From Chthonomonadales bacterium (lineage in GTDB: Bacteria > Armatimonadota > Chthonomonadetes > Chthonomonadales > CAJBBX01), in NCBI GenBank assembly GCA_027459625.1, contig DAIDHP010000033.1:1-45036 (forward strand): a stretch of DNA of 45,036 bases. The letters run 5' to 3'. This document shows positions 171 to 33,676 of the stretch, piece after piece (within the stretch, counting starts at the first letter, position 1; every line of letters begins with the position of its first letter). The notes under the pieces are model-generated. The model saw only the letters and a program-made list of their open reading frames with translations, was not told the origin of the DNA and searched no databases. A program made the translations under genes and the position numbers.

Positions 171-1733
171 ATGCCCTATTTTCGCTTGGACGACAAACAT
201 GTTCCTTTTGAGCCCGGAGAGACCCTTTTGCAGGCGTCGCTCAAAGCGGGAATCCATATCCCCACCCTTTGTTACCTTGAGGGACTTCCGCCGCAGACAT
301 CCTGCTTCCTCTGCGTGGTTCGCGTCAACGGCATGCAGCGCCTCCTCCCGTCCTGCGCCACCAAAGCCGAGGAGGGCATGGAGGTGCAAAACAACACCCC
401 TGACGTGCTGGAATCTAGGCGCACCGCCATCGAACTGCTGCTGAGCGATCACCTCGGCGACTGCATCGCTCCCTGCCAGGAGATCTGCCCCGCCCATATG
501 AACATGCCACTCATGAACCGCCAGATCGCGCATGGCGATTTCCGGGAGGCGCTGATAACCGTCAAGGAGGATATCGCGCTGCCGGCGATTCTGGGACGGA
601 TATGCCCGGAGCTCTGCGAAAAGGGATGCCGCAGGGGGCCGCACGACGGCGCCCTCTCCATCTGCATGATGAAACGTTTCGTGGCGGATTACGATCTCGA
701 ATCGGGCGATCCCTGGCTTCCCGCACCCTCCCCCCCCACGGGAAAGAGGGTCGCGATCATCGGGGCGGGACCGGCGGGTCTTTCCGCAGCGTGGCATCTG
801 ACTTTGGAGGGTCACGAGTGCACACTCTTCGACGAGCGACCGCTGCCGGGAGGCGCATTGCGCACTGCGATCCCGGAGGAGCGTCTCCCGCGTCATGTCC
901 TTGACGCCGAGATCGACATGATCCTGCGCCTAGGGGTGCGTTTCGAGGGAGATATCAAAGTTGGCGAAGACATGGATATCCGGTCATTGTTGGACGGGAT
1001 GGACGTCGTGCTGGTCGCAACCGGTCCGCGCACGAACTCGGAAATCCCCTCTCCCATCCCCTTGGAAGAACTCCGAATGGATCGCAAATCCCTGAGAACG
1101 AACGTCCCCAAGCTTTTCGTGGCGGGATCGGCGGTTACGCCCTCGCAGCACGCCATCCGAGCCGTTGCGGATGGCAAGAACGCAGCGCATTCCATCCATC
1201 AATTTCTCACCGGCGCACAGCACGCCGATTTGGGACACGATTTCAGCGTTCATATCGGCAAGTTAAGCCCTCTCGACATCCCCGTCTACCTTGTGAACGG
1301 CAGCCCCAATCCGAGAACCCCCGTGCACGAAAGAGGCTTGACCATCGAGGAGGCGCAAGCGGAGGCGAGAAGATGTCTGCATTGTGATTGCGAGGGGGCG
1401 GAGGACTGCCGCCTGCGAATGTTCGCCAAGGAGCTTGGAGCCAACCCGTTACGGTTCCGAGGCGAAAAACGGGGATACGAACGCGACACAACTCATCCCA
1501 ATCTCATCTTTGAATCCGGCAAGTGCATCGCCTGCGGAATCTGCGTGCGTATCGCCGCGCAGGAGAAGGAAAGGCTGGGCTTGACATTTGTCGGCAGAGG
1601 GTTCGCGCTAAAGACCCGCGCCCCGTTCGGCGAGGATTTGGCGGTCGCCCTGAAGGAATCCGCCGAGGCTTGCGCCAAGGCGTGTCCGACCGGGGCGCTC
1701 ATTTGGAGACCCTCCAAGGGAAACAATGGATGA
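171..1733 (+). CDS. iron-sulfur flavoprotein, GltD-like, without NAD(P)H-binding insert
   Basis: A 520-residue multi-centre redox protein, probably cytoplasmic. Residues 1-75 form a plant-type [2Fe-2S] domain like that of NuoG (C34, C45, C48, C62). Residues 90-180 match the cysteine-rich domain of glutamate synthase small subunit and dihydropyrimidine dehydrogenase (C98, C102, C106, then GRICPELCEKGC ending at C153). An FAD Rossmann motif GAGPAG is at 198-203. The C-terminus has C452, C455, C458 and C501/C505 with CPTGAL, like a [4Fe-4S] ferredoxin domain. In GltD relatives a second Rossmann fold for NADPH follows the FAD motif; here the text runs straight from VATG to FVAGS, so that fold is missing. 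The usual fourth Cys of the first C-terminal motif is Ala (CVRIA). The stop overlaps the next start (ATGA), indicating coupling to the ABC transporter genes. The physiological electron donor and acceptor are unknown. The ATG at 171 has no clear Shine-Dalgarno, but no better start exists. Confidence 0.85.
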   Translation: MPYFRLDDKHVPFEPGETLLQASLKAGIHIPTLCYLEGLPPQTSCFLCVVRVNGMQRLLPSCATKAEEGMEVQNNTPDVLESRRTAIELLLSDHLGDCIAPCQEICPAHMNMPLMNRQIAHGDFREALITVKEDIALPAILGRICPELCEKGCRRGPHDGALSICMMKRFVADYDLESGDPWLPAPSPPTGKRVAIIGAGPAGLSAAWHLTLEGHECTLFDERPLPGGALRTAIPEERLPRHVLDAEIDMILRLGVRFEGDIKVGEDMDIRSLLDGMDVVLVATGPRTNSEIPSPIPLEELRMDRKSLRTNVPKLFVAGSAVTPSQHAIRAVADGKNAAHSIHQFLTGAQHADLGHDFSVHIGKLSPLDIPVYLVNGSPNPRTPVHERGLTIEEAQAEARRCLHCDCEGAEDCRLRMFAKELGANPLRFRGEKRGYERDTTHPNLIFESGKCIACGICVRIAAQEKERLGLTFVGRGFALKTRAPFGEDLAVALKESAEACAKACPTGALIWRPSKGNNG

Positions 1734-2467
1734 AACTTCGACTGGAGAACATCGGCAAATCCTATCCGCTTCCAAACGGGAATCTGGAGATACTCAAAAA
1801 CCTCTCCCTCGACGCAAACTCCGGGGAGACCATCGCCGTAATCGGCCCATCAGGCGTGGGCAAGAGCACCCTGTTGAACATCATCGGATCGTTGGAGCCG
1901 GTTTCCGCCGGAAAAGCGCTCTATAACAATGTGGATATCTCGCATTTGACGGAGAGGGAACTGGCGAGCTACCGCTCCTCCTGCGTGGGGTTCGTCTTCC
2001 AGGATCATCATCTCCTGCCCCAACTTTCCGCTTTGGAGAACGTTCTCCTGCCGGTTTTGGCGTATCAACTCAGAACCTCGGAGGGCAAACGCGAATCCGC
2101 CTCCATGATCTTCTCGCTTCCCCCCCCGCCAACGAACGAGGAAGCCCGTAAAAAAGCGGAGGAAATGCTGGAACGCGTGGGAATGCGGGATCGCATGGAT
2201 TTTGCGCCCGGCAAACTCTCAGGCGGTGAGAGGCAGAGGGTGGCGCTAGCTCGGGCGTTGATTAACGGAGCGGAACTTCTTCTCTGTGACGAGCCCACCG
2301 GAAATCTCGACCGCGATTCGGCGGGCGGTGTGATTTCGTTGCTGTTGGAACTCGCCCGCGAGAAAAATGCGGGCATCATCATGGTGACCCATAATCACGA
2401 ACACGCCTCCAAATTCCAGAAATGTCTGAAGTTGAATGACGGAGCGTTGCAGGAATGCTCGCCATGA
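1730..2467 (+). CDS. ABC transporter ATP-binding protein, LolD/MacB family
   Basis: A 245-residue ATPase that would energise the FtsX-type permease encoded next. Walker A (GPSGVGKST), the Q-loop (FVFQDHHLLPQ), the signature LSGGERQRVALARAL, Walker B (LLLCDEPTGNLD) and the H-loop histidine (VTHNH) are all present and intact. The LSGGE signature followed by EPTGNLD is typical of the LolD/MacB/FtsE group (type VII ABC systems), which work on substrates in the outer leaflet or periplasm. The open frame extends upstream, but the ATG at 1730 is chosen because it overlaps the previous TGA as ATGA and begins the conserved text MKLRLENIGKSY. A short insert rich in Ser and Pro (SMIFSLPPPP, about residues 125-134) lies between the Q-loop and the signature and is not usual in LolD. 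Confidence 0.92.
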   Translation: MKLRLENIGKSYPLPNGNLEILKNLSLDANSGETIAVIGPSGVGKSTLLNIIGSLEPVSAGKALYNNVDISHLTERELASYRSSCVGFVFQDHHLLPQLSALENVLLPVLAYQLRTSEGKRESASMIFSLPPPPTNEEARKKAEEMLERVGMRDRMDFAPGKLSGGERQRVALARALINGAELLLCDEPTGNLDRDSAGGVISLLLELAREKNAGIIMVTHNHEHASKFQKCLKLNDGALQECSP

Positions 2468-5400
2468 ATTTCCCAAGGCTATCCTGGAAGGGAATCCTGC
2501 ATTACCGGGCGACGGGGTTATTGATCTGTCTCGGTATCCTGATCGCCTCCGCCACTCTCACCGGATCGCTTGTGGTGGGGGATTCCGTTCGGGGGAGCCT
2601 GCGGGAAACCGTGTTGCGCAGGCTGGGGAACATCGATGTGGCGATCTTCTCCACCAACCTCGCCCCCGTCAGCCTGACGGACCATCTCGACGCCTCGTCC
2701 AAGTTTCGACAATCCTATTCGCATATCGTCCCCGTTCTCCAGGTGATTGGAAACGCGGTCAATCTGAACACCAACCAGATTCTGCCGCGCATCAACCTGA
2801 TCGGAATCAGGTCGGACTTCCCCCTCGCGTACCCCTCCTTTCGCGCCCCGATTCCGCATGAAAGGGATGTTGTCGTGAATGAAACCGTCGCCAACGTCTT
2901 GAATCTTCACGTCGGTGACGCCCTGATGCTTCATATTCCGAGCATGTCTGCGGTGCCGACCGATTCCCTTTTCGGCAGACGTTCCAAGGAGGACGCCGCG
3001 AGTTCACTGAGAGTGATCGTGTCCGCCATTCTCCCGAAAAACGAGGGGGATTTCAGCCTTACGGCGTCCACCGGCTCCACGGAGGATATCTACATCTCTC
3101 GCGAGTGGCTTCGCATGCTGATCGGGGAGAAAGAGGATTGCGCCAACATCTTCCTGCTCGTGAAATCCGCCTCGGGAGAAGATGCCGATGCAGCGACGGT
3201 GAAATCCGCCTTGGAACGATACGCGCAACTGAGCGACTTTGGATTGAACGTCACCGAAAACACCGATCATCGCTATCTCAATCTGCAAACAGATTCCATT
3301 GTCATGGATAACAAAGTGGTGCAAGCGGCGCGGGAAGCCGCGACGGATTGCGGGGCGTACTCCACCCTCTCCTCCATCTACCTCGCCACCCAGGTAAGCA
3401 ACACGCAAAACAAAAATTCGTTGCACTACCTTGTCGTTGCGGGCGTTGGGGATGGATTGGGGATATCCTGCCCCGATAATGAGATACTCCTGAACTCCTG
3501 GGCGTACAAGCGACTGCTTCCCAAACTTGGCGCCGCGCTGAATGTCAAATTCCTGGCGCCCGATTGGATGGGGACATACGAGCCTCGAAGCCTCACCCTT
3601 CGGTATTCGGGACTGACTGACCCCACGGGCGAGGGTTACGATGACGGCTTGGTTCCAACCGTTCCCGGAATCACCGACGAGGAATCCATCGCCAATTGGA
3701 ACCCGCCGTTCCCGATCAATCTTGGCGTGGTCACTCCCGATGATGAAGCCTATTGGAACACCTACAGAGCCGCGCCTAAGGCGTTCGCGAGCCTTGACAC
3801 CGTGAAAGCCATGTGGCTTGAGGGCTCGATGGATAGCATGAAGCAATGGGTCACCGGAGTGCTCGCGCTGCCTCGACCGATTGTTGGGAAGGCTGCGCAC
3901 TCCCCCTTCACCGCTCAAGAGATGGAAGCGCTGAAGGCGACATTCATTCCCGCCCTTCTGCATCGGCTTGTCGAGGATAACGCGGGATTGTCGGTCCTGC
4001 CGGTTCGACAATTGGCGTTGAACGCGGCGAACGGCTCGACGGATTTCGGCGGATTGTTTCTTGGGCTCGGGTTCTTTCTGGTTATCGCCTCGCTGCTCTT
4101 TTCCGGGGTGTTGATGAGGCTTTCCGGGGAGCGGCGCGCTTCGGAGGCGGGGGTTCTTCTGGCTCTGGGGTTCTCCCCTGAGGAATCGATTCGCGCCATC
4201 AAGCTGGAGGGGGCCATGTTATCCCTGTTCGGGGCGCTGGCGGGAACGGGCGTCGGAGTCGCCTACGCCGCTTTCACCCTTTTCCTTTTATCAACGAAGT
4301 GGAGAGGGGCGATAGGCGACACTCATCTCGACCTGCATCTCATGCTTTCCTCCTTGTTCCTCGGCTTTTTCCTGTCGTTTTTCATCGCCTTTCTTAGCAT
4401 GCTCTTCAGCCTGGGGAGATTAACGAAAAGACCGGCGCTCAGGCTTTTGCGGGGCGAGACGCAGGAGATCCATCCCGTTAAAAAGGTCACATTCGCGGAA
4501 AAGGCGACGCAGACGGTCGTCCTCGCTCTCGCCCTTGCGCTTTTCGTATCCTCCACGCTCTTCAAGCTCATCTCGGGAGCGGAAAGTTTCTTCGCCATCG
4601 GGGCGTTGCTTCTCATCGCCTTCCTTAACGGCGTTCGCATCCTTCTAAAACGGCAATATGACAGGACGATCACGGGATCGAATTTACGGCGGCTGGCGCT
4701 GCGCAACCTCTCCGCAGGTCTGCTGCCCTCCATGGCTGCGATAGGGCTGATTGCGGGAGGGGTGTTCGTGCTGATCGCCGTGGCGGCGAACGTTCGCGTG
4801 TACCATCAAGGGGGCTTGCTCTCCAAAACCTCCGGCACGGGAGGCTACTCGCTTATTGTCAAGACGACATTGCCGGTCAACTCCGGGAAAACGCTGATGG
4901 GCGAGGGGGAATCCGCCAACCCGCAGGATGCGCCGCTGCTTCGTCAATGCAGGATCATGCCCTTCCTTGAAAGTCCGGGAGACGATATCAGTTGCCTCAA
5001 TCTCGCAGCGCCGGAGCATCCAAGGCTTTTGGGAGTCTCTCGGGCTTTCATGAATGCGGACGGCTTCGACATCTCCGCCAACTCATACTCTCCCAATCCT
5101 TGGAATTTGCTCGTCGCCGCCCCCAAGAATAACATCATTCCAGCATTCGCCGACTCCGACAGCGCGGAGTGGATTCTGCAGTCTGGCTTGGGACAGACCT
5201 ATGAAATAACGCTCCCGAACGGAGAAAAGCAAAAAATCAGGTTTGAGGGTCTTCTGAAACACAGCGTTTTCGCGAGTGAGATTCTCATCTCGGAGAGCAA
5301 TTTCCGCAAGCTCTTCCCCGAGGTCTCCTATCCGAGGTATTTTCTGGTGCAAACTCCCCCGGGGGGTCAGGATCAGGTCTCGAACGCGCTGCAGCGCGAT

Positions 5401-5850
5401 CTCGCCGATTACGGCGTGCAAATCCAAACCTCCCGGGATTTTCTGAACTCCATCATCGCCGTTCAAAACACCTACATCTCGGCGTTTCTGGCATTGGGCG
5501 GGATCGGTTTGCTTTTGGGGGCCGCCGGATTGATCGCCGCCTTGCTGCTGAACGCGTGGCGCAGGAGGAAGGAGTTCGCCATGATGCTCGCCATCGGATT
5601 CGACAAGAGGGATGTCGTAACTCTGCTCCTGCTGGAGTACGGGGGGATTTTGGCGATCGGTTTGCTGACCGGGACCGTCACCGCGCTGATCGCCTCCTAC
5701 CCCGAGATCATCTCCTCGGATGCAAGGATCAACTGGCAAATAATCCTTATTACGCTCGCCTCATTTCTTGTCGCGGGAATCCTGCCCTGCCTATTTGCAG
5801 GCAAGCATATCGCGTCTCAAAACATACCCATCGCTTTGAAGGAGGAATAA
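2464..5850 (+). CDS. FtsX-family ABC transporter permease, ten-helix, very long
   Basis: A 1128-residue inner-membrane permease, partner of the ATPase upstream. Hydrophobic segments fall at about residues 17-39, 527-548, 582-608, 623-648, 681-700, 708-728, 753-777, 1003-1032, 1051-1078 and 1090-1113, giving ten helices. Two large extracytoplasmic loops follow the first helix (about 490 residues) and the seventh (about 225). Helices 2-4 and 8-10 each read as an FtsX triplet (for example VIASLLFSGVLMRLSGERR followed by LLALGF, and LNAWRRRKEFAMMLAIGF), so the chain is a fused pair of FtsX units. This type VII architecture moves lipoproteins or other envelope substrates by mechanotransmission rather than classical import. 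The start at 2464 overlaps the upstream TGA as ATGA and has AGGA about ten bases before it; an ATG at 2455 is the alternative. The substrate cannot be read from sequence. Confidence 0.88.
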   Translation: MNFPRLSWKGILHYRATGLLICLGILIASATLTGSLVVGDSVRGSLRETVLRRLGNIDVAIFSTNLAPVSLTDHLDASSKFRQSYSHIVPVLQVIGNAVNLNTNQILPRINLIGIRSDFPLAYPSFRAPIPHERDVVVNETVANVLNLHVGDALMLHIPSMSAVPTDSLFGRRSKEDAASSLRVIVSAILPKNEGDFSLTASTGSTEDIYISREWLRMLIGEKEDCANIFLLVKSASGEDADAATVKSALERYAQLSDFGLNVTENTDHRYLNLQTDSIVMDNKVVQAAREAATDCGAYSTLSSIYLATQVSNTQNKNSLHYLVVAGVGDGLGISCPDNEILLNSWAYKRLLPKLGAALNVKFLAPDWMGTYEPRSLTLRYSGLTDPTGEGYDDGLVPTVPGITDEESIANWNPPFPINLGVVTPDDEAYWNTYRAAPKAFASLDTVKAMWLEGSMDSMKQWVTGVLALPRPIVGKAAHSPFTAQEMEALKATFIPALLHRLVEDNAGLSVLPVRQLALNAANGSTDFGGLFLGLGFFLVIASLLFSGVLMRLSGERRASEAGVLLALGFSPEESIRAIKLEGAMLSLFGALAGTGVGVAYAAFTLFLLSTKWRGAIGDTHLDLHLMLSSLFLGFFLSFFIAFLSMLFSLGRLTKRPALRLLRGETQEIHPVKKVTFAEKATQTVVLALALALFVSSTLFKLISGAESFFAIGALLLIAFLNGVRILLKRQYDRTITGSNLRRLALRNLSAGLLPSMAAIGLIAGGVFVLIAVAANVRVYHQGGLLSKTSGTGGYSLIVKTTLPVNSGKTLMGEGESANPQDAPLLRQCRIMPFLESPGDDISCLNLAAPEHPRLLGVSRAFMNADGFDISANSYSPNPWNLLVAAPKNNIIPAFADSDSAEWILQSGLGQTYEITLPNGEKQKIRFEGLLKHSVFASEILISESNFRKLFPEVSYPRYFLVQTPPGGQDQVSNALQRDLADYGVQIQTSRDFLNSIIAVQNTYISAFLALGGIGLLLGAAGLIAALLLNAWRRRKEFAMMLAIGFDKRDVVTLLLLEYGGILAIGLLTGTVTALIASYPEIISSDARINWQIILITLASFLVAGILPCLFAGKHIASQNIPIALKEE

Positions 5851-5856
5851 CTTCGC

Positions 5857-6963
5857 ATGCGTTTTATGAAACATCTGATCGCCATTGGAATTCTTCTCTC
5901 CCCGATTATCTTTTCATCCCCCGCCATCGCGCAGAACTGGACCTGTTTTCGCGGCTCACCGAACTTGTCGGGGGGCTCCGAGTCTCCCTTGCCCGCGAAG
6001 CCAAAACTGCTTTGGACCGCTGAAACCAGGGCGGATGTGAAAGCGACCGCCGCAATTTCAGGAGATCGAGTGTATATCGGGGACCAGAACGGCGTGGAGC
6101 AATGCCTCAATCTGCGCACGGGCAAAAGAATATGGAGTTTCAGGGCGAGAGGGCCGATATCCTCTTCGACATGCGTTCTAAACGGGGCGATCTACTTTGG
6201 CGACGAGGACGGCTTCTTTTACTCCTTGAACGCCGACAACGGAAGGAAGAGATGGATATATCAGACCGGCGAGGAGATCGTCTCCTCGCCAACTCCCGCC
6301 GGAAATCGCATCCTCGTAGGATCGTATGACTACTATCTGTACTGCTTCGGCGAATCGGGCAAGGTGATCTGGAAATATCACACCCAAGCGCAGGTGAACT
6401 GCGCCCCGTGCGTCGCCGAGGGCAGGGTTGTTATCGCCGGATGTGACGGATTCGTGCGGATTATCAGCCTCTCAACGGGCAAGGAAATCGCCCGAGCGAA
6501 GGCGGAATCCAATTTCGCCGCCTCCGCAGCGTTCGTCAATGGCAGGATCTACGTTGCGTGCATGGAGGGAGAGATGCTGTGCGTTCGCCTAGCGGATGGC
6601 CGTATCCTTTGGAGCAAGCCCGCCCTTAGCTCCAACGATGGAGTGAAGGCGTGCGCCGCCGTGAAAGGGGATATCGTCCTGTTCGCCACCGACGGAAACC
6701 ATGTCGTTCGCGTCAATCCAAGCAATGGGCGGGTATTGTGGACCTTCACCTGCCAGGGTGAGGTGAACTCCTCGCCGGTGATTGACGGCGGCGCTGCGTA
6801 TTTCGGATCGGATGATGGCAACCTATACGCCGTGGATGTGGCGAATGGCAAGGGCTTGTGGAGGTTCCCCGCCGGAGCGCCCATAAAAGCCTCTCCGGCG
6901 ATCGCGTGGGGACGGCTAGTGATTGGAACCGGAGACGGCGGGGTGTACTGCTTCGGGAAATAA
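5857..6963 (+). CDS. secreted PQQ-type beta-propeller repeat protein
   Basis: A 368-residue exported protein. Residues 1-25 form a Sec signal peptide ending at AIA-Q, followed by a short mature N-terminus (NWTCFRGSPNLSG), as often seen in PQQ-like propellers. From about residue 60 to the end there are seven or eight blades of the pattern xYxGDxDGxxYxLxxxxGxxxWxF, each ending in the W that closes a blade. This resembles BamB and quinoprotein dehydrogenase propellers, but no quinone-binding Cys-Cys pair or dehydrogenase residues are seen, so an enzymatic role is not supported. GGAGG (5841-5845) stands 11 bases before the ATG. It is the last gene of the operon, six bases after the permease, which suggests a periplasmic partner or scaffold for the transporter. 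Confidence 0.88.
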   Translation: MRFMKHLIAIGILLSPIIFSSPAIAQNWTCFRGSPNLSGGSESPLPAKPKLLWTAETRADVKATAAISGDRVYIGDQNGVEQCLNLRTGKRIWSFRARGPISSSTCVLNGAIYFGDEDGFFYSLNADNGRKRWIYQTGEEIVSSPTPAGNRILVGSYDYYLYCFGESGKVIWKYHTQAQVNCAPCVAEGRVVIAGCDGFVRIISLSTGKEIARAKAESNFAASAAFVNGRIYVACMEGEMLCVRLADGRILWSKPALSSNDGVKACAAVKGDIVLFATDGNHVVRVNPSNGRVLWTFTCQGEVNSSPVIDGGAAYFGSDDGNLYAVDVANGKGLWRFPAGAPIKASPAIAWGRLVIGTGDGGVYCFGK

Positions 6964-7485: not shown

Positions 7486-10400
7486 ATGAAAGCATCGCTT
7501 CGCGCTCTGGTCACCTCGCAGATAGCCTTTTACCTAATTGCGTCACTCTTAGGGATTGCGGCGGCTTCCGCGCCCAATCCCGTCACGATAGGAGACGCCA
7601 GATTCACGGTCATCACTCCGGAATGCATCAGGATGGAATACTCCCCCGAGCATCGGTTCATCAACAACCCCACTCTGTTCGCCATGGAGCGTAACGCACG
7701 GGATAAGAAGGCGCGGATCGTTTTAAGCCACGATCGGCTAATTATCCGCACCCCTAACTTCGAATTAACTTACGCACCCGACGGGAAACCGTTCTCGCCG
7801 GATAACCTGAAGGTGAGGATTTTGAATAACGGGGAGCCGGAGACATGGACGCCAGGCGAAAAAGACCCGAACAATCTTGGCGGTCCCATCGCCACACTGG
7901 ACGGCGTGTCCAGCCCTTTGGATCTTCCCACAGGGCTCATCTCTCGATCCGGTTGGGGCTTGGTGGATGATTCCGGGCAGCCCATTCTCAGGAACGATTG
8001 GATCGCCCCGCGCCCCGGCTTTGAAAAGGGCATACCAAGCCCTCAGGATATGAGCGGCAAGGATATCGACTGGTATCTCTTCACGTATGGAAAGGATTAC
8101 CAAGGGGCGCTGAGATCGCTCGCGGCAATTTCGGGACGCGCCGCGATGCCCCGCCGGGAGGTGCTTGGCTCTTGGTATTGCAGATGGTACAACTACACCG
8201 GAAAGCAATTCCAACAGATTGTGAATGGGTATAAGAAGCACGATTTCCCATTGGATATCCTCGTGATGGATATGGGATGGCACCTTCAAAACGCAACCGC
8301 CGGCATGGGCTGGGCGAACAATCTCGGCTGGACGGGCTACACTTGGAACCGAAATCTCATCCCCCACCCCAAGCAGTTGCTGAAAACCTTCCACATGGAT
8401 GATATTTTCGTCACTCTGAACGATCATCCCGCCGACGGTATCCGCACGACCGAGGAGTGTTATCCGAAATTCATGAGGCTCATGGGTCTATCCCCGGCAT
8501 CCGGCAAGAACCTCCCCTTTGACGACGGCAGCAGGCGATACATGAAGGCTTTTTTCGCGGCGAGTCACACCCCTTTGGAAAAGGAGGGGGTGGATTTCTG
8601 GTGGCTGGATTGGCAGCAGGACAGCCTCATCCCCTGGGTTCCAGGAGTGCCCGGATTGCGCAACCTGCCGTGGCTCAACAAGCTTTACTACGATCACTCC
8701 GTGAAGAGCGGGTTGCGGGGTCAGATTTACAGCCGCTGGGGCGGTTGGGGCGAACAGCGATACCCCATTCAGTTCTCCGGGGATGCAGGTGGGTTCTGGA
8801 GCCTGCTCGGTTTCGAGGTGCCCTTCACCCTCGCATCCGGCAATGATGGCTGTTTTTACTGGGCGCATGACACCGGTGCGATCTGGGGGCCTCGCAACCC
8901 CGAGCTATACGCCAGATGGACTCAGTTCAGCGGGTTCTCCGCCTCGCTTCGAGTGCATTCCATGGGCGATATCGACCGTCGCCCCTGGCTTTGGGGGGAA
9001 CCGTTCGTAAGCTCCATGCGACGAATATATCATCTGCGATCTCAACTGTTCCCATATATCTACACGAGCGTCCGCGAATGTTACGATAAGACGATTCCGC
9101 TCCTCCGTCCGATGTATATGATGTATCCCAAAGAAAGCCAGGCATACCACTATCCAGACGAATACCTTTTCGGAGACAACATCCTCGCCGCCCCTATCAT
9201 CACGCAGGGTGTGGGTCCCGGCATGGTGGCGAATCAAGGCGTCTGGTTTCCGAAGGGCGTGTGGTATGACCTGTTCACGGGAGAGCGCTGCGAAGGAGAT
9301 TCCGAAAAGTTGGTTGCCGCCGACATCATGGAATCGCCTGTGTTCGTTCGCGGCGGCGTGCCCATTCCCATGCAACCCTACACTCCGCGTATGACAACCG
9401 CCCCGATTCGGACGCTGACCGTGAGATGCTATCCCGGGGAAAACGGAAAAACGGGGCGTTCCTCTCTTTACGAAGATGACGGTCGCACTCAAGGCTATCT
9501 GCACGGGCGATACGCAAAAACCCCGATCTCCTATTCCCGCCTTGGCGACAAGGTGGTGGTCCGGATCGGCGCAACATCGGGGCATTACGCCGGTCAAGTG
9601 AGGATGCGCGGCGATATCGTGGAACTTCCGGATACCGCAAGGGGGACGCGCGCACTTGTAAATAACAGATTCAGCCCCCTCATCTACAATCCAATCGATC
9701 ATATAAACCGTGTGATCGTGCCCATTCACCCCATCACAAAGCCGACGACCGTCGTGATTAATTGCCTCCCCGTGAATTTCACGATCCTTCATGAATTTTC
9801 CGTTTCCCGTAGGCTGCAAGGGGTGATGGGAAAGGATATCCCCTCCTCCAATCCGCTTCAAACACTTCAAAGTTCGAAGAATTTGACGGATGAGCAAAAG
9901 AGGGCGATATTAGGCATTCTCGGAGTGGGATTGATTAAGGAGACCGATGGCAGGGACTTCCAATCCAACCAGCCACGATACGTCTTCTACGCCCCAAAAG
10001 GGTTAATAGACGACAACATGGCGTATGTTTCCGATGGATCGGATGCAGGCGAGGATGTGAGCATGGCGAACGGCGCGGCGCTGGTTGGAGGACAAGGCAC
10101 AACCATTCCTGTTCCAGTGGTGAGTTTCAAGATCGGCGGGGAGCCATTCGAACTATCCGGTGGTCCGTTTATCGGCCAAGGGGATGTGGCGTTACAAGCC
10201 AAGGTGACCGCAAGCGGTTCCGAGGGAGGTTACAGCCCGCAGGGTGCGATTGATGGAGTGATCAACGGCTATCCGAACAACAAGGCGAACGAATGGTCCT
10301 CCGGTTCAAAAACCGGCGCTTGGCTGGAACTTAAGTGGGACACGCCGCAAACCGTGGACCGTATTGAACTCTGGGATCGCCCCAACCTCACGGATCAGGT

Positions 10401-10602
10401 GACGGGAGGCGTAATAACATTCAGCGACGGAAGCTCCTTGGACGTTGGGAAATTGCCGAATGACGGACAGACAGGCGTAACGCTGAAATTCCCGCCGAAG
10501 ACCATCACCTGGCTTAAATTCACCATTACGTCGGTAAGCCCAAGCACTCAAAACGCAGGCATATCCGAAATAGCGGTCTACAAAACGGACACCGATAAAT
10601 AG
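7486..10602 (+). CDS. GH31 family alpha-glycosidase with C-terminal discoidin-like domain
   Basis: A 1038-residue secreted retaining glycoside hydrolase. A signal peptide covers residues 1-27 (ending AAASA). The GH31 N-terminal sandwich is followed by the barrel. The likely nucleophile is D375 in FWWLDWQQD and the likely acid/base is D433 in FSGDAGGFW; the downstream YWAHDTGAIWG is the family's substrate-site loop. The usual GH31 C-terminal beta domains follow (LLRPMYMMYP, then FVRGGVPIPMQ). Around residues 780-830 a linker contains TDEQKRAILGILG. Residues 890-1035 read as a galactose-binding-like F5/8 type C (discoidin) domain (GAIDGVINGYP, NEWSSGSKTGAWLELKWDTP). WLDWQQ instead of WxDMNE places it in a GH31 subgroup, so alpha-glucosidase, alpha-xylosidase or alpha-galactosidase specificity cannot be told apart. 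It stands alone downstream of its own promoter and upstream of the 116 bp repeat array. Confidence 0.9.
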   Translation: MKASLRALVTSQIAFYLIASLLGIAAASAPNPVTIGDARFTVITPECIRMEYSPEHRFINNPTLFAMERNARDKKARIVLSHDRLIIRTPNFELTYAPDGKPFSPDNLKVRILNNGEPETWTPGEKDPNNLGGPIATLDGVSSPLDLPTGLISRSGWGLVDDSGQPILRNDWIAPRPGFEKGIPSPQDMSGKDIDWYLFTYGKDYQGALRSLAAISGRAAMPRREVLGSWYCRWYNYTGKQFQQIVNGYKKHDFPLDILVMDMGWHLQNATAGMGWANNLGWTGYTWNRNLIPHPKQLLKTFHMDDIFVTLNDHPADGIRTTEECYPKFMRLMGLSPASGKNLPFDDGSRRYMKAFFAASHTPLEKEGVDFWWLDWQQDSLIPWVPGVPGLRNLPWLNKLYYDHSVKSGLRGQIYSRWGGWGEQRYPIQFSGDAGGFWSLLGFEVPFTLASGNDGCFYWAHDTGAIWGPRNPELYARWTQFSGFSASLRVHSMGDIDRRPWLWGEPFVSSMRRIYHLRSQLFPYIYTSVRECYDKTIPLLRPMYMMYPKESQAYHYPDEYLFGDNILAAPIITQGVGPGMVANQGVWFPKGVWYDLFTGERCEGDSEKLVAADIMESPVFVRGGVPIPMQPYTPRMTTAPIRTLTVRCYPGENGKTGRSSLYEDDGRTQGYLHGRYAKTPISYSRLGDKVVVRIGATSGHYAGQVRMRGDIVELPDTARGTRALVNNRFSPLIYNPIDHINRVIVPIHPITKPTTVVINCLPVNFTILHEFSVSRRLQGVMGKDIPSSNPLQTLQSSKNLTDEQKRAILGILGVGLIKETDGRDFQSNQPRYVFYAPKGLIDDNMAYVSDGSDAGEDVSMANGAALVGGQGTTIPVPVVSFKIGGEPFELSGGPFIGQGDVALQAKVTASGSEGGYSPQGAIDGVINGYPNNKANEWSSGSKTGAWLELKWDTPQTVDRIELWDRPNLTDQVTGGVITFSDGSSLDVGKLPNDGQTGVTLKFPPKTITWLKFTITSVSPSTQNAGISEIAVYKTDTDK

Positions 10603-11645
10603 AACATGATTGATGGATACAGGGATTAACAGGATGAGGTTATGCAGTATCCCCCATGCCCTCGATGCGTTCCATCCTGTCCATCACTCCATCCTGAAAT
10701 CTTGTTCAAACACAGGAACACGATGAAAGGGATTAAGGGATTAACAGGATGAGGTTATGCAGTATCCCCCCATGCCCTCGATGCGTTCCATCCTGTCCAT
10801 CACTTCATCCTGAAATCATGTTCAAATATAGGAACACGATGAAAGAGATTAAGGGATTAACAGGATGGGGTTTATGAAATCCACATCAATGCCCTCGATA
10901 CGTTCCATCCTGTCCATCACTTCATCCTGAAATCATGTTCAAATATAGGAACACGATGAAAGGGATTAAGGGATTAACAGGATGAGGTTATGCAGTATCC
11001 CCCCATGCCCTCGATGCGTTCCATCCTATCCATCACTTCATCCTGAAATCATGTTCAAATATAGGAACACGATGAAAGGGATGAAGGGATTAACAGGATG
11101 AGGTTGATGGAATTTACGCCAATGCCTTCGTTAAGGTCCATCCTGTCCATCACTCCATCCTGCCATCTTGTTCAAACACAGGAACACGATGAAAGGGATG
11201 AAGGGATTAACAGGATGAGGTTGATGGAATTTACGCCAATGCCATCGTTACATTCCATCCTGTCCATCACTCCATCCTGAAATCTTGTTCAAATATAGGA
11301 ACACGATGAAAAGGATTAAGGGATTAACAGGATGAGGTTTATGGAATCTACGACAATGCCCTCGATGCGTTCCATCCTGTCCATCACTTCATCCTGAAAT
11401 CATGTTCAAACACAGGAACACGATGAAAGGAATTAAGGGATTAACAGGATGAGGTTGATGGAATTTACGCCAATGCCCTCGATGCGTTCCATCCTGTCCA
11501 TCACTCCATCCTGAAATCTTGTTCAAACACAGGAACACGATACGTTCCATCCTGTCCATCACTCTATCCTGAAATCTTGTTCAAACACAGGAACACGATA
11601 CGTTCCACATCCTGTCCATCACTCTATCCTGAAATCTTGTTCAAT
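10603..11645. repeat. tandem array of 115-117 bp units with two 58 bp half-units
   Basis: The word TTAACAGGATG recurs at 10626, 10741, 10857, 10974, 11090, 11207, 11324 and 11441, spacing 115-117 bases, so eight full units are present. Each unit is two 58-base modules. One begins CGTTCCATCCTGTCCATC and ends ACACGATG; the other begins AAAGGGATTAAGGG and ends CCTCGATG. The last two copies before the next gene contain only the first module (period 58), as expected from deletion between the CGAT words. AACAGGATG in one module is complementary to CATCCTGT in the other, giving a possible long-looped stem in each unit. Units differ by scattered substitutions. No coding potential, spacer structure or cas genes are seen. 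Confidence 0.92.
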
Positions 11646-11705
11646 ATGTATCATACTATGAATAGATATTTTATCACCATGCGGATTTTGGAGAGGTGCA
11701 AATCA

Positions 11706-13991
11706 ATGGTTTCCAAAGGGATTAGGACAATTGCCGTCACCTTCTTGTCGTTTGCGCTTATATACGGCTTCCGAATGGTGACGTTGGCAATGGATAATCC
11801 CCATTCAATTCTCACAGCCGCCGCCGCACCCAAAGGCGACGACATCGCTTGGCGATCCGTGGGACCGGGAGGCGGTGGGTGGATCGAATCCATCGCCTGG
11901 GATCCCAAGGATGTCCGCACCCTCTACGTGGGATGCGACGTGGGCGGATTTTTTATCTCCAAGGATGACGGGCGACATTACGAAAGACGCAATACCGGAC
12001 TGAAAAACTACTTCATCCAGGACATAGCGGTCGATCCGAACAACACGCACATTATTCTGCTCGCCACCGAAGGGGGCGTATATCGCACGACGGATCGCGG
12101 AAAACACTGGACAAGCATCCGCAACGGCTTCCCTCCAATCCAACGTTACTCCTTCTCCGCACCCATCGGATGCATCCAGTTCGATCCGGTCCATCCTAAC
12201 ATCGCCTTCGCAGGGGTGGGACGTCCACGCTGGGGAAAGGGAGGCGCGGGGGCGATCTATCGCAGCACGGACACGGGACTGACTTGGAGGGAGGTCTCAG
12301 CCGGGCAACTCCCCGAGGATGCCATCGTGAGCGGCATAGCGGTGAAACCCAATGACAGCCGAATTATTCTTGCAGCGACGGATCATGGCGTATTTCGCAG
12401 CGATGACGATGGAAACAGATGGATGCACAGTGATAAGGGTTTGGATAATATCGATTGCCAGCGGCTGGCTTTCTCTCCATCCTCCCCGGATGTCGTCTAC
12501 CTAACCGTCAACACCACTGCGAGAGACAATCAGCCTTGGAACGGCGGAGTGTACCGCAGCGACGACGCGGGAGAAACATGGAGACCCGTGAATGGAAATG
12601 GAATGCATGAGCAGGTGGGAAAAAGCGGGGATTCCCCCTATTTAACAGACAGTGTCATGGCGTTGGCGGTGGATCCACGCAATGCTAACGTCGCGTATAC
12701 GGCGGACCACGATTGGATTAACGCCGGAGTTCTCAAAACTACCAATGGCGGAGCCTCTTGGCGAGAGAGTACAAACTCCACGAAAAATACGGGTAACATG
12801 CAATACGGTTGGATAGATTTTTGGGGACCAAGCGTGGAATGCATGGCTCTATCCCCTGCGGACCCGAATCGAGTCGCCATCGGCACCAGCGGACACGTCT
12901 TTGTAACGAGGAACGGCGGAATTACATGGGACCAGCGATATTGCGAAATGCTCCCCGACGGACGATTCACCGGTACGGGACTGGAGACCACCTGTCCGAA
13001 CACGGTTATCCCGTCCGACTCCGACCCGCATAAGGCGTACTATTGTTACGCGGATATCGGTTTGCTTATAAGTCACGACGACGGGAAGAGCTTCCATCGC
13101 TCATACAAGGGCATGAAGTATGCAGGTAACTGTTTTACGGCGCTGGAGGATCCGTCACGCCCCTCCACTTTATGGGCTGCGACTGGATGGTGGGATCATA
13201 ATGCGGGAGATATTTGCATGTCCGTTGACGACGGCGCCACTTGGCGCGTCGTAGGAGATCCGAGCTCGGGTTTGCCAGATGGCCAAACGAGATATCTCGT
13301 TCTGGATAAGCACAGCCCAGTGAAGCGGCGAACTCTTGTTGCAGCCTGCGAAGGATACGGGGTCTATGAATCCAAGGATGGTGGGGAAAGTTGGGCGTGC
13401 ATTAACGGGAATCTCCCCGCTGAGGCATGCAGGCGGCCAAGAGGGTTGCTAACGGATCCCGCCAATTCGAAGCATATCCTCATAGCCTTGGGAGGCTTCC
13501 CCGAGGAGGGGTCAGGAGTTTACGAGACAACCGATAACGGGGTGACATGGAGCAAACGAAACATCCGAAATGATTTCGCCGATATTCGATGCATGGCGGC
13601 AACTCCGGGGAATATCTCAACGTTATATATAGGATGCCAGGAATCATACGATCAAACCAGCAAAACCGATTATCCGGGGGGTGTTTTTAAAAGTACGGAC
13701 GGGGGGGAAAGTTGGAGGTTAACGCTTAGCGATCCCACCATTAGCTCAGTTGCGATCGCCCCCCAAAACCCCCGGACCATCTATGCGGCGACAAACGATT
13801 TCCCTTACCATGACGACTACGCCGCATACGGATTGTTGATGAGCAGGGATGGCGGGAACACCTGGAAAAAAGAGGATAACGGTCTCTCCTTGCTGAATGT
13901 GACTAACATCACCGTCAGTTCCGGTGCGCCGTATAACTTATATCTATCCACCCAGGGGAACGGGGTATTTACTGGCACGGCACTACGGTGA
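11706..13991 (+). CDS. secreted BNR/VPS10-like beta-propeller protein, GH74-like fold
   Basis: A 761-residue exported protein made of sialidase-type (BNR) repeats. The pattern SxDxGxTW recurs throughout (STDTGLTW, SDDAGETW, TTNGGASW, TRNGGITW, SVDDGATW, SKDGGESW, TTDNGVTW, STDGGESW, SRDGGNTW), consistent with one or two seven-bladed propellers. The N-terminus WRSVGPGGGGWIESIAWDP with YVGCDVGGFF resembles the opening of GH74 xyloglucanases and VPS10/sortilin propellers. I cannot locate the GH74 catalytic aspartates with confidence, so enzymatic activity is unproven. The start at 11706 is chosen because GGAGAGG (11690-11696) lies nine bases upstream and the protein then begins with a signal-anchor-like segment (IAVTFLSFALIYGF). 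The open frame extends back into the repeat array, which is unlikely to be translated. Confidence 0.8.
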   Translation: MVSKGIRTIAVTFLSFALIYGFRMVTLAMDNPHSILTAAAAPKGDDIAWRSVGPGGGGWIESIAWDPKDVRTLYVGCDVGGFFISKDDGRHYERRNTGLKNYFIQDIAVDPNNTHIILLATEGGVYRTTDRGKHWTSIRNGFPPIQRYSFSAPIGCIQFDPVHPNIAFAGVGRPRWGKGGAGAIYRSTDTGLTWREVSAGQLPEDAIVSGIAVKPNDSRIILAATDHGVFRSDDDGNRWMHSDKGLDNIDCQRLAFSPSSPDVVYLTVNTTARDNQPWNGGVYRSDDAGETWRPVNGNGMHEQVGKSGDSPYLTDSVMALAVDPRNANVAYTADHDWINAGVLKTTNGGASWRESTNSTKNTGNMQYGWIDFWGPSVECMALSPADPNRVAIGTSGHVFVTRNGGITWDQRYCEMLPDGRFTGTGLETTCPNTVIPSDSDPHKAYYCYADIGLLISHDDGKSFHRSYKGMKYAGNCFTALEDPSRPSTLWAATGWWDHNAGDICMSVDDGATWRVVGDPSSGLPDGQTRYLVLDKHSPVKRRTLVAACEGYGVYESKDGGESWACINGNLPAEACRRPRGLLTDPANSKHILIALGGFPEEGSGVYETTDNGVTWSKRNIRNDFADIRCMAATPGNISTLYIGCQESYDQTSKTDYPGGVFKSTDGGESWRLTLSDPTISSVAIAPQNPRTIYAATNDFPYHDDYAAYGLLMSRDGGNTWKKEDNGLSLLNVTNITVSSGAPYNLYLSTQGNGVFTGTALR

Positions 13992-29497: not shown

Positions 29498-32400
29498 ATG
29501 AAATGGTTCGCTAATCAGAAAATAGCGTTCAAGCTTGGAGTCAGCTTCGCGGTGATGGCGCTGGTCGCAGGGATCATAAGCGTCAACGGCATTCGCTCAA
29601 TGAGCGCAATGAAGAGCGAGGATGAGTCGTTATATCAGAACAAAACCATCCCAATGGGGTATATCGCCGACATCGAGATGGACTACCAACAAATCCGCCT
29701 GTGCCTTAGGGATATGGTTTTGGCGAAGGGTAAAGACCAAGTAAACCTTCAGGTTCAAAACATCGGACAATACAGTGAAAAAGTGGATCAGGATACGACC
29801 AAGTTAAGTAAATGCCTAGCAATTCAATCCGACACTTTAAAAAACCTATGCAATCAAGTTGCCAATGCGGATCAGCAATATCAACCCATAAAGGATCGCG
29901 CCATCTCGCTTGCGCAAGCCGGTAAAAGCAAGCAGGCGTTAGCCGCCATCAGAACGGGTTCAGCCATATCCCAACAGGAAGACAAGGCTCTCAAGGATCT
30001 AAGGAACTCGCTCATCTCGGATGCGAAACAGACCGCCATGACAAATCACGCGGCTGCCGACGCCGCAACTCGTTCATCCATCCTGATGATGATCATCGGT
30101 ATCCTGTTCGCGGCGGGAATCGGCTTCTATCTCACTAAACTGATAGCCAAGCCTGCGGTGGCAATGGCGGAAGTGGCTAAAAAGTTATCCATTGGTGACA
30201 CGGATGTGCATTTGGATTACGAAAGCAAAGATGAGATCGGGGATCTATCGAGGGGTTTCGGTGATATTATCGAGAATAACCGTAAACGCGTTGAGGCGGC
30301 AAATGCCATCGCTCGTGGTGATCTCTCCATAGAGGTACCTGTTCGATCGGAGAAGGACATCATGGGCATCAGCCTCCGAAAAGTTGTGGATGCTCTTCAC
30401 TCCATGGTTGATGAGACGAATATGCTCATACAAGCCTCCATAGCGGGCAAACTAAATACACGCGGAGACGCTCGTAAATTTGAAGGGGCATACGCCGAAA
30501 TAGTGCAAGGTGTCAACAATACACTTGACGCAGTGATTGGGCCAATGAACGTTGCTGCGGAATACATAGATCGGATATCCAAGGGAGATATTCCGCCCAT
30601 TATTACGGAACAGTACCATGGTGACTTCAATGAGATCAAGAACAACCTCAACAACACCGTCAAGATGATGAACGATCTTCTTTGGGAGACGGATATCATT
30701 ATTAAAGCTGCGGCGGATGGAAAGCTTGACACTCGCGCTGACGCGTCAAAATTCGAAGGTGGTTGGAACAGACTCGTAACGGGAGTTAACGACACCATCA
30801 CCAATATAGTTAATCCGTTGAATGTCACGGCGGAGTATGTCGAGAAGGTGTCCAAAGGCGTCATCCCGCCGACCATAACCACCGAATACAAGGGGCAATA
30901 CAACCAAATCAAGATCAACATCAACAATATGGTTGAGATGATGAATAATCTTTTGGAGGAAACCGACAAGATATCCAGCGCCGCATTAAAAGGAGAACTG
31001 GCGACAAGAGCTAACGCATCCTTGTTTAAGGGCGGCTGGAACAAACTCGTCACTGGCGTGAATGGCACTCTGGACGCAGTGATTGGTCCGCTGAACGTAG
31101 CTGCGGAGTACGTGGATCGAATCTCCAAGGGGGACATCCCGCCGATCATCACCGAGCAGTACAACGGCGACTTCAACGAGATCAAGAACAATCTCAATAT
31201 GTGCATCAACGCACTATCCACTCTCATTGCGGAGATGAACCGGATGTCCGAGCAGCACGACCTCGGCGACATTGATGTGGTTATCGACGTCAACAAGTTC
31301 CAAGGTGCATTCCAGAACATGGCGTCCGGCGTCAACAAGATGGTGGGCGGTCACATCACGGTTAAAAAGAAAGCCATGGCGTGCGTTGCCGAATTCGGAA
31401 AAGGCAACTTCGAGGCGCCGCTGGAGAGGTTCCCTGGCAAGAAGGTCTTTATAAACGAAACCATAGAGCAGGTCAGAGCCAATCTCAAGGCACTCATACA
31501 GGATGCGAACATGCTGGTGAAGGCAGCCGAGGAGGGCAAGCTCAACACCAGAGCCGACGCCTCCAGACACGAAGGGGATTTCAGAAAGATCGTCCAGGGC
31601 ATCAACAACACGCTCGACGCGGTCATCGGACCTTTGAATGTGACTGCGGAGTACGTGGATCGAATCTCCAAGGGAGACATCCCGCCGATCATCACCGAGC
31701 AGTACAACGGCGACTTCAACGAGATCAAGAACAACCTCAACATGTGCATCAACGCGCTGAACGAGATGATCCGCGAGGCGAACACTCTCGAAAAGGCGGC
31801 GACCGAGGGAAGATTGAACACTCGTGCGGACGCATCGAAGTATCAGGGTGATTATAGAAAGATCATTCAGGGCATCAACAGCACGCTCGACGCGGTCATA
31901 GGACCTTTGAATGTGACTGCGGAGTACGTGGATCGAATCTCCAAGGGAGACATCCCGCCGATCATTACCGAACAGTACAACGGTGACTTCAACGAGATCA
32001 AGAACAACCTCAACAACACCGTCAGGATGATGAACGAACTCCTTTCGGAAACCGACATCATCATCAAGGCTGCTGCGAACGGTCAACTCGACACGCGAGC
32101 CGATGCGTCCAAGTTTGAGGGCGGCTGGAACAAACTTGTAGCGGGAGTTAACGACACCATCACCAATATCGTCAACCCGTTGAATGTCACAGCGGAGTAT
32201 GTTGAAAAGGTGTCCAAGGGCGTCATCCCGCCGACCATAACCACTGAATACAAGGGGCAATACAACCAAATCAAGATCAACCTCAATAATATGGTCAGGA
32301 TGATGAACGAACTCCTTTCGGAAACCAACATCATCATCAAGGCTGCTGCAGACGGTCAACTCGACACGCGAGCCGATGCGTCCAAGTTCGAGGGCGGTTG

Positions 32401-33676
32401 GAACAAACTCGTAGCGGGAGTTAACGACGCCATCACCAATATCGTCAACCCGTTGAATGTCACGGCGGAGTATGTTGAAAAGGTGTCCAAGGGCGTCATC
32501 CCGCCGACCATAACCACCGAATACAAGGGGCAGTACAACCAGATAAAGCACAACCTCAACAATATGGTCGAAATCATGAATGAACTCTTGTCGGAAACGG
32601 ATATTATTATCAAATCCGCATCCGAAGGCAAATTGGAGACAAGAGCCGAGGTGTCCAAATTCGAAGGAGGTTGGAAAGAGCTTGTATCTGGGGTGAACGG
32701 CATTCTCGAAGCTATAGTCGGTCCCATCAATGAATCCGCGGATGTTCTGGATCGCGTCGCCCAGAAGGACCTCACCGTAAGAATGAAGGGTAACTATCAG
32801 GGTGACTTCGCCAGAATCAAAACATCGCTCAACTCCGCGCTGGACAATCTGGATGCGGGAATGGTGCAGGTGCTGGAAAGTTCCGGTCAGATAGCGGATG
32901 CGTCAAACCAGATCAGCCAGGGAAGCCAGGCGCTGGCGGAAGGTTCCTCGAACCAGGCGGCGGCGCTGGAGGAGATCGCCGCGAGCATCCAGGAGACGAC
33001 AGCCATGGGCGATGAGAACACCAGCAACGCCCAGCAGGCCAAGGACCTGTCGGAGAGTGCAAGAAAAAGCACGGAGAGAGGAATGGGCAGCATGCGCCAA
33101 CTCTCAGAGGCGATCGAGAAAATCAAACTCTCATCCGACAACACCGCGAAGATCGTCAAGACCATCGACGAGATCGCCTTCCAAACCAACCTGCTCGCAC
33201 TGAACGCCGCAGTCGAGGCGGCGAGGGCGGGCGACGCAGGCAAGGGGTTCGCCGTCGTGGCGGAGGAGGTGAGAAACCTCGCGATGCGAAGCGCGGAGGC
33301 GGCGAAGAACACCGCGAACCTCATCGAGGGGTCCGTGAAGGACGCCGAGGCGGGGGTGACAATCAATCAGGAGGTGCTCGCCAATCTTCAAGAGATCAAC
33401 GAGAACGTCAATAAGGTCTCCGAGGTCATGAACGGCATCACTTCCGGCACCGAGCAGCAGCGCGAGGCGATCAACCAAGTGAACCACGCGGTCGAGCAGG
33501 TGAACCAGATCACCCAACAGGTGGCGGCGAGTTCCGAGGAATCCGCCGCGTCGGCGGAGGAGTTAATGGCTCAGTGCGACGAGATGCTGAGCATGGTGAA
33601 AACCTTCAGGCTAAGCTCCCAGCAAAGCGAGAGTGATCGCCGTAAGGACATCCGCCTTGTGAGAAAAGCGGCCTGA
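29498..33676 (+). CDS. methyl-accepting chemotaxis protein with nine tandem HAMP-like units
   Basis: A 1392-residue transmembrane receptor. TM1 is at about residues 13-31, an extracytoplasmic four-helix-bundle-type sensor at 33-190 and TM2 at 192-212. A canonical HAMP follows ([19 protein letters not shown]). Residues 317-1130 hold nine units of 91 residues (one of 90), each of the form G-x-L-x-T-R-A-x-A-S-K-F-E-G ... [10 protein letters not shown] ... SKGDIPP ... [12 protein letters not shown], matching HAMP_2-type repeats. The fourth unit (about residues 590-680) is strongly diverged. The C-terminal signalling hairpin contains [22 protein letters not shown] and [10 protein letters not shown]; Glu-Glu-rich helices provide methylation candidates. 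There is no C-terminal NWETF-type pentapeptide. It is the last gene of the chemosensory operon, ending at a strong hairpin. The large HAMP array would place the kinase-control tip unusually far from the membrane. Confidence 0.95.
30446..32899 (+). repeat. 273 bp tandem repeat encoding HAMP-like units
   Basis: Unit starts (codon for the Gly of G-x-L-x-T-R) fall at 30446, 30719, 30992, 31265, 31535, 31808, 32081, 32354 and 32627, so the period is exactly 273 bases except for one of 270. Units at 32081 and 32354 are nearly identical at DNA level. Two subtypes alternate irregularly: A (AVIGPLNV...[13 protein letters not shown]: units 1, 3, 5, 6) and B (NIVNPLNV...[13 protein letters not shown]: units 2, 7, 8); unit 4 is divergent and unit 9 leads into the signalling domain. 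Confidence 0.95.

Follow-up and report, generated by a model that had tools for sequence, protein, structure and literature searches.

We analysed a 45,036-nucleotide contig from a Chthonomonadales bacterium of the phylum Armatimonadota (GenBank assembly GCA_027459625.1, contig DAIDHP010000033.1; this whole stretch is called the window below), near whose start four genes (positions 171–6963) encode an iron-sulfur flavoprotein, a LolD-type ATP-binding cassette (ABC) ATPase, an FtsX-type permease and a beta-propeller protein, propC. By comparison with other genomes, the four genes are one end of a gene system conserved in at least six bacterial phyla, and the flavoprotein's missing NAD(H) site most likely resides in a separate subunit of this system, BfuCB. 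We interpret the whole, at slightly less than even odds, as an envelope redox system that would carry electrons of NADH and ferredoxin outward to periplasmic propellers acting on an inner-membrane (glyco)lipid. The gene associations are well supported, and it is for the direction of electron flow, the substrate and the chemistry that we infer.

Open reading frame (ORF) calls on the window sequence place the four genes head to tail on the + strand. The flavoprotein gene (171–1733, 520 aa) shares an ATGA stop/start overlap at 1730–1733 with the ATPase gene (1730–2467, 245 aa). A second ATGA, at 2464–2467, joins the ATPase to the permease (2464 or 2455–5850, 1131 aa) if the latter begins at its second ATG, while a start at 2455 would give a 13-base overlap; six bases then separate the permease from propC (5857–6963, 368 aa). 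Apart from this dependence on the permease start, the junctions are as the preliminary description had given them. The flavoprotein–LolD–FtsX–propeller order, whose conservation had been proposed as a check, recurs identically in other Armatimonadota (G025/L043, L050, L123 and L125) and nearly so in the planctomycete L128, where one small ORF lies between flavoprotein and LolD (ORFs outside the window come from a simple script).

The assignment of the flavoprotein as a BfuA-type iron-sulfur protein draws on its Pfam domains (2Fe-2S, GltD-type 4Fe-4S and a split flavin adenine dinucleotide (FAD) domain), on NCBIfam PRK12814, on its top PDB sequence matches (the NfnABC and StnABC large subunits) and on a structural model. 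From the N-terminus it comprises a [2Fe-2S] domain, a GltD-like 4Fe-4S region, the FAD Rossmann fold and a NuoG-like C-terminal cluster domain, so that the cluster and FAD motifs described earlier are indeed present. What is missing is the second Rossmann fold, for NAD(P)H. The alignments to NfnABC and StnABC leave a gap between template residues of about 295 and about 427, and a GGGNTAxDA nucleotide-binding motif stands in long homologs (from Acidobacteriota, Verrucomicrobiota, Ignavibacteriota and Clostridia) at the exact position of the gap. In the window protein the lost domain of about 125–145 residues would have lain at about residues 285–303 (1023–1079, + strand), which include a loop of low predicted local distance difference test (pLDDT) score at residues 289–291, and it is missing in 24 of 24 short orthologs. 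The model (mean pLDDT 88.9) superposes on NfnABC (9bov_A; Z 41.6, 510 residues aligned, root-mean-square deviation (rmsd) 2.6) and on StnC (8oh5_C; Z 40.3, 512 aligned). Alignment, model and superposition thus agree in ruling out a concealed NAD(P)H fold, the finding that had been named as fatal to the earlier claim.

Among the same 24 orthologs, the cluster ligands checked are kept throughout except in one Cys column (22/24), and the [2Fe-2S] and HxxxCxxxCxxxCP/CxxCxC motifs of the GltD–NuoG fusion are invariant. The flavin site is more relaxed. Binding of FAD probably persists, given an intact GxGxxG motif; the residue equivalent to StnC Arg239 is arginine in only seven orthologs and the Asp of the FAD GD-motif is kept in two, both being invariant in six long homologs. 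In a tree, a well-supported branch (100/97; root not known) separates the short forms from the long ones. We read the protein as a BfuA-type subunit that has lost a domain and would have been converted into an electron relay, mainly through iron-sulfur clusters. Its flavin is unlikely to be a bifurcation site: the flavin-proximal Arg is not conserved, and the FAD of StnC is itself non-bifurcating (PMC10482914). A stand-alone glutamate synthase subunit is ruled out by scores far under the cut-offs and by a different conserved context.

Electrons of such a protein must pass to another carrier, as the preliminary description had reasoned, and the likely NAD(H) partner is found directly upstream in most other genomes, where a single gene encodes a fused BfuC–BfuB (NuoE–NuoF) protein. 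BfuCB consists of a thioredoxin-like N-terminal domain, the BfuC [2Fe-2S] domain and a ferredoxin-like C-terminus (clusters B3/B4), whose second ferredoxin motif is unmatched by pattern in two of 18 cores. For Schut et al. (PMC9304861), a B2-cluster His and this C-terminal ferredoxin-like domain distinguish bifurcating NuoF-like proteins from non-bifurcating ones; the corresponding BfuB-specific motif, H-x4-CPxxxC, occurs in all 18 partner cores, that of the window genome included, and aligns with 7t2r_B. Since this likely partner is encoded upstream in most relatives, we regard the window operon as a fragment of a larger redox locus. The upstream partners are absent from the window because the window is the whole contig (G000:C33) and starts only 170 bp before the flavoprotein gene. 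The BfuCB operon of the window genome lies on another contig (C2, about 208850–221396), and genomes G001, of the same genus, and G055 are split in the same way.

Elsewhere the full order reads propA, an NHL-repeat gene, a ferredoxin gene with a signal for twin-arginine translocation (Tat), a NapH-like gene, propB, BfuCB, flavoprotein, LolD, FtsX and propC. It holds in Armatimonadota and is found in part or in full in Planctomycetota, Firestonebacteria, Bacteroidota, Verrucomicrobiota and Lentisphaerota. In the Tat ferredoxin a twin-arginine motif is accompanied by 16 cluster cysteines, enough for four [4Fe-4S] clusters; the export of this protein by Tat and the membrane anchoring of the propellers are predicted from sequence. 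Neither iron-sulfur protein reaches the curated family models (22.9 against a NapG cut-off of 269 for the ferredoxin, 52.9 against a napH_ cut-off of 213 for the NapH-like protein). The NHL-repeat protein (L104 18347–19294) carries invariant GCCNP and SEKGxxRxK motifs. Several variants of the locus were seen. Both the window genome and its sister G001 have an insertion that separates propeller B from the NapH-like gene, namely a GH42-like gene whose product includes a carbohydrate-binding domain (L104 13067–16114); and in Marinifilum (L135, L137) LolD has stayed in the locus, the FtsX gene having moved to another contig. An Acidobacteriia locus (L139) has propA, NHL, Fer4 and NapH genes, with BfuC and BfuB separate and a long flavoprotein that retains the NAD(P)H domain; it is a possible sister or ancestral form.

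The remaining genes of the window operon encode a transporter and a propeller. The ATPase has a Walker A motif (residues 39–46) and an LSGGE signature (residues 163–167) and scores 226.2 bits against the LolD equivalog cut-off of 307.75. The permease contains PF02687 twice, a weak MacB_PCD match and ten hydrophobic segments, in agreement with the ten helices proposed earlier, arranged as two FtsX domains and two large extracytoplasmic domains. As a single ten-helix protein it differs from the separate four-helix LolC and LolE and falls outside LolCDE; a LolD-type ATPase with a ten-helix permease bearing two large periplasmic domains is the layout of the type VII YbbAP-like class. Among the matches listed for its model (mean pLDDT 78.2), the closest fold by VIA-align is E. 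coli YbbP (9ge6; Z 23.7, 714 aligned, rmsd 6.7), followed by BceB; those matches are mostly LolCDE, MacB, FtsX and HrtB, and other fold families may exist. On this modelled fold, the LolD–FtsX pair is a YbbAP-like type VII ABC transporter. In the YbbAP-TesA system, hydrophobic compounds are taken out of the inner membrane and offered to a hydrolase in the periplasm (PMC12646458). The label of exporter is thus not borne out, as the characterised relative of the nearest protein extracts compounds rather than moving them across the inner membrane. No TesA-type periplasmic hydrolase was seen in the locus, in which no search aimed at TesA was made. PropC is a periplasmic BamB-like/PQQ_2-type beta-propeller with a Sec signal peptide (N-terminus MRFMKHLIAIGILLSPIIFSSPAIA), scoring 202.5 bits, above the cut-off, for PF13570, with orthologs behind FtsX or the flavoprotein elsewhere. 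The epithet of a propeller like those binding pyrroloquinoline quinone (PQQ) holds for the superfamily and fails for the PQQ-dehydrogenase family (61.6 against 480 bits); the BamB equivalog cut-off is likewise missed (213.1 against 285.2).

Co-occurrence among 61 Armatimonadota genomes, some tests being restricted to those at least 90% complete, supports a tight redox module and its association with the transporter. The flavoprotein occurs with BfuCB in 16 of 16 cases (p=8e-14); one BfuCB genome, G001, has no flavoprotein match, and its contig ends inside FtsX. Propeller A is present in 17/17 genomes with BfuCB and in 0/44 otherwise, with a score gap between 1e-170 and 1e-93. Within the more complete genomes, FtsX accompanies propeller A in 15/15 and is found in five others, and it coincides with one GT4-type glycosyltransferase in 20/20 as opposed to 0/31 (the thresholds for the glycosyltransferase and propeller D were chosen after the scores were seen); the redox module is never without both. 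Outside this set, 14 of 14 short-flavoprotein genomes tested have FtsX and propeller A, compared with 0/3 having the Stn-like long form; most of the 14 lie outside Armatimonadota, and the two that do not, L119 and L141, enter the counts above as G003 and G020. Absences are blurred by the incompleteness of metagenome-assembled genomes, and the presence or absence of modules alternates inside two families.

The GT4-type glycosyltransferase gene also stands near the locus in several phyla. A terpenoid block, comprising a squalene–hopene-type cyclase (DxDDT intact), a polyprenyl synthase fused to DUF116 (DDxxD intact), a radical S-adenosylmethionine (SAM) enzyme and an iron-sulfur protein, adjoins the redox locus in Armatimonadota, Planctomycetota and Bacteroidota, and adjoins LolD–FtsX–propC–propD in a verrucomicrobial genome. 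It occurs in six of the 61 Armatimonadota, five of which carry the redox module adjacent to it. In the window genome the block lies on contig C2 (about 221591–228869; L182 5592–12870), divergent from propeller A, and holds the iron-sulfur protein, a B12-type radical SAM enzyme, the cyclase with DxDDT, the polyprenyl synthase–DUF116 and a GT4 glycosyltransferase.

We envision the envelope redox system as follows. Judging by its conserved residues, cytoplasmic BfuCB (NuoE–NuoF type, with FMN, an NADH site and a ferredoxin-like C-terminus) would exchange electrons with NADH and ferredoxin. The flavoprotein, as its BfuA subunit, would relay them through its iron-sulfur clusters to the NapH-like membrane iron-sulfur protein, and this in turn, in the predicted topology, to the Tat-exported 4x[4Fe-4S] protein outside the membrane. 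These two may serve the membrane-anchored propellers A and B and the NHL propeller. In parallel, the YbbAP-like transporter with propellers C and D and the glycosyltransferase would handle a hydrophobic lipid at the outer face of the inner membrane, a lipid that fold and gene neighbourhood suggest is probably glycosylated and, in some species, terpenoid. Electrons of NADH and reduced ferredoxin would most likely flow outward, a direction that fits their biosynthetic use, and the propeller proteins would spend them on lipid modification. The more specific proposal of a new kind of envelope machine, in which electrons of a cytoplasmic bifurcation-type enzyme cross the inner membrane by way of iron-sulfur proteins and periplasmic propeller enzymes use them to reduce or otherwise alter a (glyco)terpenoid lipid that a YbbAP-like ABC extractor presents, is possible and, in our judgement, doubtful. 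Propeller A (L182 3949–5397) shows unusually high conservation between phyla (42–56%), and its blade loops hold many invariant Trp, His, Arg, Gln and Cys residues, as if an active site were present.

Several observations weigh against the envelope redox system. Propeller A could be a scaffold, and in the window genome itself the flavoprotein is encoded far from BfuCB. The co-occurrence statistics are uncorrected for shared ancestry. The redox module is missing from seven Armatimonadota genomes that carry FtsX and the glycosyltransferase; the transporter can therefore do without it, and the flavoprotein is ruled out as an obligate transporter partner in every host. Finally, only 5/17 redox-positive Armatimonadota have the terpenoid block, so that a terpenoid is not the universal substrate unless it is made elsewhere.

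A reading less probable than the envelope redox system, which we would put at about one chance in a handful or slightly better, is electron disposal or respiration, in which excess electrons of NADH and ferredoxin go to a soluble or mineral external acceptor, propeller A is the terminal reductase or a docking protein, and the ABC transporter and propeller C merely assemble or deliver envelope parts. Parts of NapGH/NosR type are familiar components of respiratory chains, the link between the redox module and propeller A is strict, and one carrier genus, Labilibaculum (L133), includes a Mn-oxide-reducing species in which the responsible genes are unidentified (PMC5760507). However, this reading leaves the FtsX–glycosyltransferase link and the terpenoid genes unexplained, no molybdenum reductase was seen in the locus, and the cytochrome motif CxxCH is absent from the propellers. 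A multiheme terminal reductase is ruled out on the latter count; the single CxxCH of the NapH-like protein overlaps a 4Fe-4S motif.

It is improbable, to our minds, that flavoprotein and transporter are two unrelated modules travelling together because the same lifestyle needs both. The modules are unlinked in G003, G005, G008, G010 and G020, FtsX stands without redox genes in 7/22 Armatimonadota, and its distances follow those of the redox proteins less well (Mantel r 0.40–0.57) than the distances of propeller A, BfuCB and flavoprotein follow one another (0.77–0.83). Against this, the redox genes are contiguous with LolD–FtsX in Armatimonadota, Planctomycetota, Firestonebacteria and Bacteroidota, and the more complete genomes never have the redox module without FtsX. 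Equally unlikely is an inward flow, with propeller A as a periplasmic sugar or alcohol dehydrogenase whose electrons reach the Bfu core through the iron-sulfur proteins and yield NADH and reduced ferredoxin: PQQ_2-type propellers are related to quinoprotein dehydrogenases, propeller A has many polar and Cys residues invariant across phyla, and glycoside-hydrolase genes adjoin the locus in the window genome, but propellers A and C score far under the PQQ-dehydrogenase models and glycoside hydrolases are common in these genomes.

Taken together, the results partly support the preliminary description: the pairing of the flavoprotein with LolD–FtsX is real and conserved, the four genes form an incomplete unit, and the suggested redox-linked envelope system is a reasonable interpretation. 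Downstream of the operon the window encodes a GH31 enzyme with C-terminal discoidin-like and DUF7402 domains (7486–10602) and a sortilin/BNR-type propeller protein (11577–13991). Further on is a chemoreceptor of 1392 aa (29498–33673) with eight consecutive HAMP_2-type matches and further HAMP domains, near CheA-like and MotB-like genes.

If the envelope redox system is correct, the Bfu family, in which 17 clades still await a function (PMC9304861), would extend from soluble and proton-pumping complexes to a periplasm-wired one, a YbbAP-like transporter would gain a redox context, and cells of several poorly studied phyla would push electrons out through iron-sulfur proteins alone, without cytochromes. 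The system is testable in the cultured carriers Marinifilum, Labilibaculum and Perlabentimonas. Bfu/Stn enzymes, NapGH-type iron-sulfur proteins, type VII ABC transporters and BamB-like propellers are each known separately; their combination, with an NADP-less BfuA, a membrane iron-sulfur relay, propellers and a YbbAP-like transporter, is not described in the literature searched (open-licence papers only, weak evidence of absence).

With StnABC and Nfn-Bfu enzymes (PMC7483475, PMC10482914, PMC9304861) the locus shares a NuoE-/NuoF-type core and a third subunit with 2Fe-2S, GltD-like and NuoG-like parts and the same cluster motifs; it differs in that NuoE and NuoF are fused, the flavoprotein lacks both the NAD(P)H domain and the long C-terminal FdhF-like part of StnC, and the operon adds membrane and periplasmic iron-sulfur proteins and propellers. 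We view the redox part as a variant within the Bfu family, with a predicted bifurcation activity; classing it as a Stn transhydrogenase would require the defining NADP(H) domain, for which the test was negative. NapGH, NosR and MauMN likewise place a Tat-exported 4x[4Fe-4S] protein beside a polytopic membrane protein with CxxxCP motifs and two cytoplasm-type 4Fe-4S motifs, but here the scores are far under the curated cut-offs and the pair is linked to a bifurcation-type NADH/ferredoxin core and propellers instead of Nap or Nos enzymes. YbbAP-TesA, whose permease is the best structural match among those listed, has a similar LolD/YbbA-like ATPase and a ten-helix permease with two large periplasmic domains, whereas the present permease is about 330 residues longer and its genetic partners are a periplasmic beta-propeller and a glycosyltransferase. 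Propellers A, B, C and D, finally, have the fold and repeat signature of BamB/PQQ_2 beta-propellers, from which propC is set apart by its scores below the BamB and PQQ-dehydrogenase cut-offs and by its place in an operon with redox and ABC genes.

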